A stretch of 64,000 nt of DNA from Muribaculum gordoncarteri (GTDB taxonomy: Bacteria > Bacteroidota > Bacteroidia > Bacteroidales > Muribaculaceae): the NCBI RefSeq assembly GCF_004803695.1, contig NZ_CP039393.1:2418001-2482000 (forward strand). The letters run 5' to 3'. Positions 25,139 to 25,929 of this stretch are shown here, in pieces. How positions within the stretch are numbered: the first letter of the stretch is position 1; each line of letters begins with the position of its first letter. A program made the position numbers and the translations under genes. The notes under the pieces are model-generated. The model had not been told where the DNA came from and searched no databases. It saw only the letters and a program-made list of their open reading frames with translations.

Positions 25139-25209
25139 TGTCTTATGGTGTAATGGTAGCACTGCAGTTTTTGGTTCTGCCTGTCTAGGTTCGAATCCTG
25201 GTAAGACAA
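25139..25209 (+). tRNA. tRNA-Gln (anticodon TTG)
   Basis: A 71-base cloverleaf. The acceptor stem TGTCTTA (25139-25145) pairs with TAAGACA (25202-25208), discriminator A25209. The T arm reads CTAGGTTCGAATCCTGG. The anticodon loop TTTTGGT gives anticodon TTG, reading CAA. The CCA end is not encoded. It has its own promoter and terminator, so it is a single-gene unit. Confidence 0.95.
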
Positions 25210-25217
25210 CACCCTCC

Positions 25218-25257
25218 CAAGGAGCTAAGCAACACGCTTGGCTCCTTGCTTATTTTA
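25218..25257 (+). terminator. Terminator of tRNA-Gln
   Basis: A 13-bp stem with one wobble (25218-25230 with 25236-25248) is followed by the T-rich sequence TATTTTAT. Confidence 0.8.
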
Positions 25258-25271
25258 TGCACCCACGTATT

Positions 25272-25396
25272 GTAGGGACGCGATACATCGCGTCCACATC
25301 AACAACGGGTAATTCACGGGCAACATGGATAATTCAACCTCCGTTCAACATTTATGGGCATTAACTATTTGCGGACGCGATGTATCGCGTCCCTAC
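25272..25396. repeat. REPIN-like inverted pair of GTAG-headed palindromes
   Basis: Two exact 24-base copies lie in opposite orientation at 25272-25295 and 25373-25396, separated by 77 bases. Each copy is GTAG followed by a hairpin with arms GGACGCGAT and ATCGCGTCC around AC. A GTAG head plus palindrome is the hallmark of REP elements mobilised by RAYT (Y1 tyrosine) transposases, and inverted doublets of about this size are called REPINs. The assignment rests on this architecture; no RAYT gene is in the window. The right-hand copy lies inside the 3' end of the adjacent minus-strand gene. Confidence 0.7.
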
Positions 25397-25811
25397 GTTT
25401 GCGGCGGAGCAGCTTGTCAAGCTTGCTTCGGCCGGATTTTTGTTGTTGAATGACAGGCTGTGGCTGAGTGGGTGTCGGTTGAGCAGTTGTCGGCTGCGTG
25501 GGTGCCGGCTGCGTGGGTTCTGTGGGGCGTGAAGGTGCGGATTTGGTGGCGGTTTTGCGGGCGCGGGCAAGGCGTCGCAGTTCACGGGCGCGGTAGCGGC
25601 GACGGATTGTGGGCATGATGAGCATGAATATGGCGCGGGGCACTCCGGAGGTCACCTCGATTATCGTCAGGTCGCGCTGATAGGCTTCGATTGCGGCGCA
25701 TATTTCGTCGCGATAGTGTTTAGGCAGACGATCGACTGCATCTTTCCACTCCTGATCAAACTTCAGATTCTTGCCCTTGCGGCTCGATGTTTTGGTTGTT
25801 GCGTTTTCCAT
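25365..25811 (-). CDS. Hypothetical basic protein with a Pro/Thr/Gln-rich linker
   Basis: 148 residues from MENATTKTSSRKG (25811). The N-terminal half (about 15-80) is a compact, probably helical segment (FDQEWKDAVDRLPKHYRDEI). It is followed by an Arg-rich patch (RRRYRARELRRLARARK) and a low-complexity stretch of PT/PQ repeats (about 95-125). The final codons, reading RRDAIHRVR, are the REP-like palindrome itself, and the stop TAG falls in the spacer between the two palindromes. No known family was recognised. A TATATTTG -7 box sits at 25827-25834 on the minus strand. Confidence 0.6.
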   Translation of the reverse strand: MENATTKTSSRKGKNLKFDQEWKDAVDRLPKHYRDEICAAIEAYQRDLTIIEVTSGVPRAIFMLIMPTIRRRYRARELRRLARARKTATKSAPSRPTEPTQPAPTQPTTAQPTPTQPQPVIQQQKSGRSKLDKLLRRKRRDAIHRVRK

Positions 25812-25826
25812 AATTACTTTTTTCAG

Positions 25827-25834
25827 CAAATATA
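25827..25834 (-). promoter_or_regulatory. -7 box for the small basic protein gene
   Basis: TATATTTG on the minus strand. Transcription would start about 10 bases before the ATG. No clear -33 element is seen. Confidence 0.4.
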
Positions 25835-25890
25835 TTACACCGAAGCCCCGCATTTCACCCCATAATGTCGCGAAGCGCACTTTTTTGTGC

Positions 25891-25929
25891 AAAAAAACAG
25901 GCGGTCGATTCTCTGAAGAACCGACCGCC
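25891..25929 (-). terminator. Terminator of nifJ
   Basis: On the minus strand, GGCGGTCG (25922-25929) pairs with CGACCGCC (25900-25907), extended by GTTC/GAAT-type pairing inside, and is followed by TG and seven T residues (25891-25897). Confidence 0.88.

Follow-up and report, generated by a model that had tools for sequence, protein, structure and literature searches.

A REPIN in Muribaculum gordoncarteri and a RAYT gene of the same genome with an internal REP pair

Introduction

Classic REP genomes contain hundreds of REPs. In the REPINs of Pseudomonas fluorescens, reportedly described by Bertels and Rainey in 2011, the repeated unit is an inverted REP doublet, and a RAYT is present in the genome. 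The E. coli TnpAREP cuts single-stranded REP at GTAG-headed hairpins (PMC8266576), and adjoining genes can obtain coding sequence or a stop codon from GTAG repeats (Di Nocera 2013, PMC3733652). For subclass 2.4 of TnpAREP (RAYT group 4), the text of Quentin 2018 describes in-frame REPs within tnpAREP, given as an addition to flanking REPs (PMC6006769). No cutting or movement by any subclass-2.4 enzyme was shown in the literature found.

Here we describe a REP-type palindrome pair of Muribaculum gordoncarteri, located in a stretch of 64,000 nucleotides (the window; NZ_CP039393.1, positions 2,418,001 to 2,482,000). A first-pass annotation had interpreted the pair as a REP/REPIN element of a system best described in proteobacteria. 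The interpretation is supported by dispersed palindromes, a repeated doublet and a RAYT in the genome, but REPs and RAYTs in Bacteroidetes are already published, in the subclass 2.4/group 4 part of Quentin 2018 (PMC6006769).

Results

The 24-mer GTAGGGACGCGATACATCGCGTCC is present in two exact copies that face each other at window positions 25272-25295 (forward strand) and 25373-25396 (reverse strand, an inverted copy), with their GTAG heads outward and a length of 125 bases from end to end. Each head is followed by a 9-2-9 hairpin with the arms GGACGCGAT/ATCGCGTCC and a loop of 2 bases, in agreement with the first-pass description of coordinates and arms. With arms of 27 nt (96%), the doublet ranks first among the inverted repeats of the window, and two palindrome matches were observed in the window against 0.07 expected from dinucleotide shuffles. 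As single-stranded DNA it folds far better than shuffled sequences (z -5.2), and as RNA with z values of -9.8 and -8.2, one per strand. The spacer (25296-25372) has ends, CATCAACAA..GGTAAT and ..TATTTGC, that are common to three other doublets of the genome according to alignment and blastn. The left neighbour of the REPIN is a tRNA-Gln(TTG) gene (25139-25210, forward strand), followed on its 3' side by a terminator-like hairpin (25219-25247) recognized by sequence inspection.

Palindromes of the GTAGGGACGCGATACATCGCGTCC type occur at 13 dispersed sites in the 3.43-Mb genome, several of them as inverted doublets, and the reversed control pattern was found at none. The first-pass annotation had proposed to count the 24-mer throughout the genome, and the count speaks against a single locus. 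It is far above chance, with about 4e-7 matches expected in the genome for the exact palindrome, yet low for REPs. The copies lie on C1 at 697308, 697655, 699131, 699336, 966839, 1943958, 1944130, 1947176, 2443272 and 2443373 (the window pair), 2532087, 2532195 and 2532753; ten of them have GCA at the untagged end, where the left copy of the window has ACA instead. Four doublets, one of which is decayed on its right side, share the spacer ends, and the doublet is therefore the repeated unit (REPIN); the alignments thus support that it has been multiplied as such. Two whole doublets align by blastn (E ~1e-14). The outer flanks of the doublet at C1:2532087 are unlike those of the other doublets, which places it outside any larger duplication, and long identical flanks are common to the copies at C1:1944130 and 1947176. 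On the 3' side of tRNA-Cys a REP is present in this genome, while the site is REP-free in the nine genus members for which flanks were listed. For the doublet in the window, a REP-free counterpart was sought across the genus and no clean one was found; synteny behind tRNA-Gln is broken in the relatives.

The right REP codes part of the C-terminal tail of a DUF6291 protein gene (25365-25811, reverse strand, 148 aa; Pfam PF19808, E 2.4e-6); the final residues of the protein, RRDAIHRVRK, come from the REP together with its adjoining tail. The same kind of REP-coded tail was observed in two DUF6291 paralogues (L032, L033); L033 still encodes a near-identical peptide (RRDAIHRARK) although its palindrome has decayed. 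Five full-length paralogues without REP have unrelated basic tails. The simplest reading of these sequences is that the REP would have been inserted before DUF6291 was duplicated. A DUF6291 gene fragment flanks a fourth palindrome copy. The family comprises at least eight full-length copies in the genome, in addition to short stretches that match the 5' end and the upstream region (window 25365-25892; L248-L262, L032, L033), and among the matches listed from a DNA search there was no copy in 13 other genus members. The neighbouring ORF at L033:2339-2794, in the same genome, ends in IPAGRDAIYRVRIEKG and a stop codon and is also REP-coded at its end, and one REPIN therefore supplies the C-termini of two converging genes.

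A single RAYT gene of subclass 2.4 was found, at C1:698879-699481 (L028:3880-4482), with an ORF of 200 aa. Two stretches of the protein align with NF047646 (REP_Tyr_transpos; E 7e-15, 55 bits), with a score below the curated cut-off of 80 bits. Since none of 149 family genomes passes this cut-off, it is unsuited to subclass 2.4. With our subclass profile, built from related proteins, the gene gave E 1e-68, and the runner-up in the genome, a member of another group, 1e-14. Two other Y1_Tnp matches, at C1:479120 and C1:2914920, were set aside as they have no palindrome nearby and match other groups. The alignment identifies H77, H79, W163, Q164, Y184 and N188 as conserved residues, and the HUH, WQ and YIxNN motifs of subclass 2.4 are present, the last reading YIDNNV with V replacing the P of YIxNNP. 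The neighbours of the gene differ between the two genus members carrying it.

The first-pass annotation had anticipated a RAYT gene flanked by the same palindrome. The gene exists, but there is no REP within 700 bases outside its ORF, the nearest being two in the upstream TonB-receptor gene, both in frame; instead, an inverted palindrome pair lies inside the RAYT reading frame, between HUH and the Tyr. The first internal REP is located 5 codons past HUH and encodes VGTRYIASA, and the second 10 codons ahead of WQ and encodes RTRCIASLP.

Across seven genera, 11 RAYT genes were observed to have a complete inverted pair at the same two places: the first REP lies 4-19 codons past HUH, the second shortly ahead of WQ. 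(For three of the genes the automatic distance went to a later W-N pair, and the sequences show the same WQ.) The two REPs within a gene differ by 3 mismatches in total over the 11 pairs, compared with 33 when partners were shuffled, and none of 200,000 shuffles was as low as 3, although the genes, being related, are not independent of one another. At two stem positions A-T and G-C alternate across the genes with pairing kept, and the internal pairs occur in six stem variants over the eleven enzymes, whose types include a GACGCGAT type and a GGCGCAAT type. The internal REP type is common elsewhere in only some genomes, as in G006, where it accounts for close to half of the matches; in G058 both palindrome matches are inside the RAYT gene. 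The relative G204 lacks the internal pair and carries REPs outside the gene, and G298 combines the two arrangements. The second REP of G313 is translated in a different frame, suggesting that it was inserted separately, at almost the same position. In the G057 gene (L294:1951-2634) the TAG stop codon is supplied by a third REP, and in-frame tandem repeats, such as QNIAEMPSH x3, SRTNDPAMQ x2 and IASTSAQGN x3, stand beside the internal REPs of the RAYT genes in L295, L294 and L349.

An AlphaFold model of a related RAYT (L143), calculated from three input sequences, was poor (pLDDT 56.6). In this model the REP-coded residues 88-96 and 143-151 are predicted in or at the edge of the low-confidence segments 84-125 and 145-160, and Foldseek matched the model weakly to the RAYT 4er8 and to IS200-like transposases (E ~0.02).

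When the 149 family genomes were searched with up to two mismatches, the palindrome was found in 41, with up to 70 matches per genome, and a subclass-2.4 RAYT in 44 (cut-off set by us at E 1e-24). The RAYT was present in 20 of the 41 palindrome genomes versus 24 of the 108 without palindrome (Fisher p 0.002, a value that ignores shared ancestry). Co-occurrence is weak with NF047646 alone, because this profile also picks up Y1 members of other groups and overlooks genes interrupted by REPs; the subclass profile was used in its place. No subclass-2.4 RAYT was detectable in 21 of the 41 palindrome genomes. One such genome, G038, has 70 matches; REPs seem to persist longer than the enzyme or to exist without it. 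A search with the clade alignment over 397 genomes gave matches in 18. The exact palindrome was found in at least 119 genome_contigs stretches, mostly from Bacteroidota (0.03 expected by chance), and further under the labels Chloroflexi, Anaerolineae, Oscillospiraceae, Christensenella, WOR-1, Gracilibacteria, Glaciimonas and Nodosilinea, with the qualification that many of these records come from metagenome bins and may be mislabelled or wrongly binned. The 22 fixed REP bases are identical under several phylum labels, also in the isolates Glaciimonas soli and Nodosilinea nodulosa. This identity could be due to transfer, to constraint or to mis-binning.

Discussion

The feature in the window is very probably a REPIN, consisting of two inverted REP hairpins and a short spacer multiplied as a doublet, and probably mobilised by the subclass-2.4 RAYT encoded elsewhere in the genome. 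The gene at C1:698879-699481 is the likely mobiliser, and we infer that it acts on these REPs. By analogy with the E. coli TnpAREP, the RAYT, a Y1 HUH single-strand nuclease, would bind the GTAG foot and the hairpin on single-stranded DNA, cut and rejoin the single-stranded REP DNA, and copies of the REPIN would thereby reach new positions, frequently the ends of genes. Transposition itself we infer from the same analogy, and the REP-free tRNA-Cys flanks of the relatives point to it indirectly.

A chance or composition-driven inverted repeat is refuted by the shuffles and the reversed control, which yielded none or almost none, and by the minute number of exact matches expected in the genome. 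Passive spread, in which the duplicated DUF6291 family happens to have the palindrome at the 3' end and carried it along while no transposase acts today, would explain the REP-coded tail common to three paralogues, the gene fragment beside a fourth copy and the long identical flanks at 1944130 and 1947176. It is an unlikely account, since REPs also occur at sites without DUF6291 (beside tRNA-Cys, in the TonB-receptor gene, in the RAYT gene and as the doublet at 2532087) and are absent from five full-length paralogues.

Still less probable is a reading in which selection maintains the palindromes as terminators of transcription or stabilisers of mRNA and they are not mobile DNA. The hairpin is stable as RNA and located at gene ends, and REP roles as RNA elements have been published (PMC3733652), but the sequence is identical at unrelated sites, copies are in frame inside genes, the hairpin is not followed by a T-run, and the spacers of the doublets are related. 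A later RNA role would be compatible with a mobile origin.

That the element is an ordinary REPIN in kind, together with its RAYT, is thus well supported, and it adds a gut Bacteroidota REPIN/RAYT system with the enzyme identified. Such a system is of a known kind, and what merits further attention is the internal pair, conserved and co-varying. What is new here is the inverted pair at fixed places in eleven RAYT genes, with its two copies changing together. Tentatively, and with somewhat more doubt than confidence, we suggest that in one Muribaculaceae RAYT clade a REPIN has become resident inside the transposase gene, at the same two protein loops, with compensatory pairing and with copies kept in step. 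If this is true, enzyme and substrate sequence would be physically coupled, because a switch to another REP type also rewrites two enzyme loops. The internal pair may function as a source copy or as an element of self-control. The related enzymes offer a natural test of RAYT/REP co-evolution: since each of the eleven holds its own in-frame REP pair, in one of six stem variants, enzyme and substrate can be paired directly.

Comparison with known systems

The REPINs of P. fluorescens resemble the present system in having an inverted REP doublet as the unit and a RAYT in the genome. They differ in copy number, hundreds of REPs against 13 here, and in RAYT group, and the RAYT described here is marked internally and not flanked. 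Compared with the GTAG repeats of Di Nocera 2013 (PMC3733652), the particular feature is one REP-coded C-terminus common to three DUF6291 paralogues. With subclass 2.4, as the text of Quentin 2018 (PMC6006769) describes it, the present system shares the motifs NH[IFV]H, WQ and YIxNN, the Bacteroidetes as one of the main host groups, long canonical REPs whose stem foot has G-C pairs, and in-frame REPs between the HUH and the Tyr of tnpAREP. That text, Figure S10 aside, reports insertions and does not describe a conserved co-varying internal pair. Set against the flanking plus internal REPs it describes, the unflanked RAYT is a departure, and the present system is further distinguished by one clade in which a head-out inverted pair occupies two fixed places and its copies co-vary.
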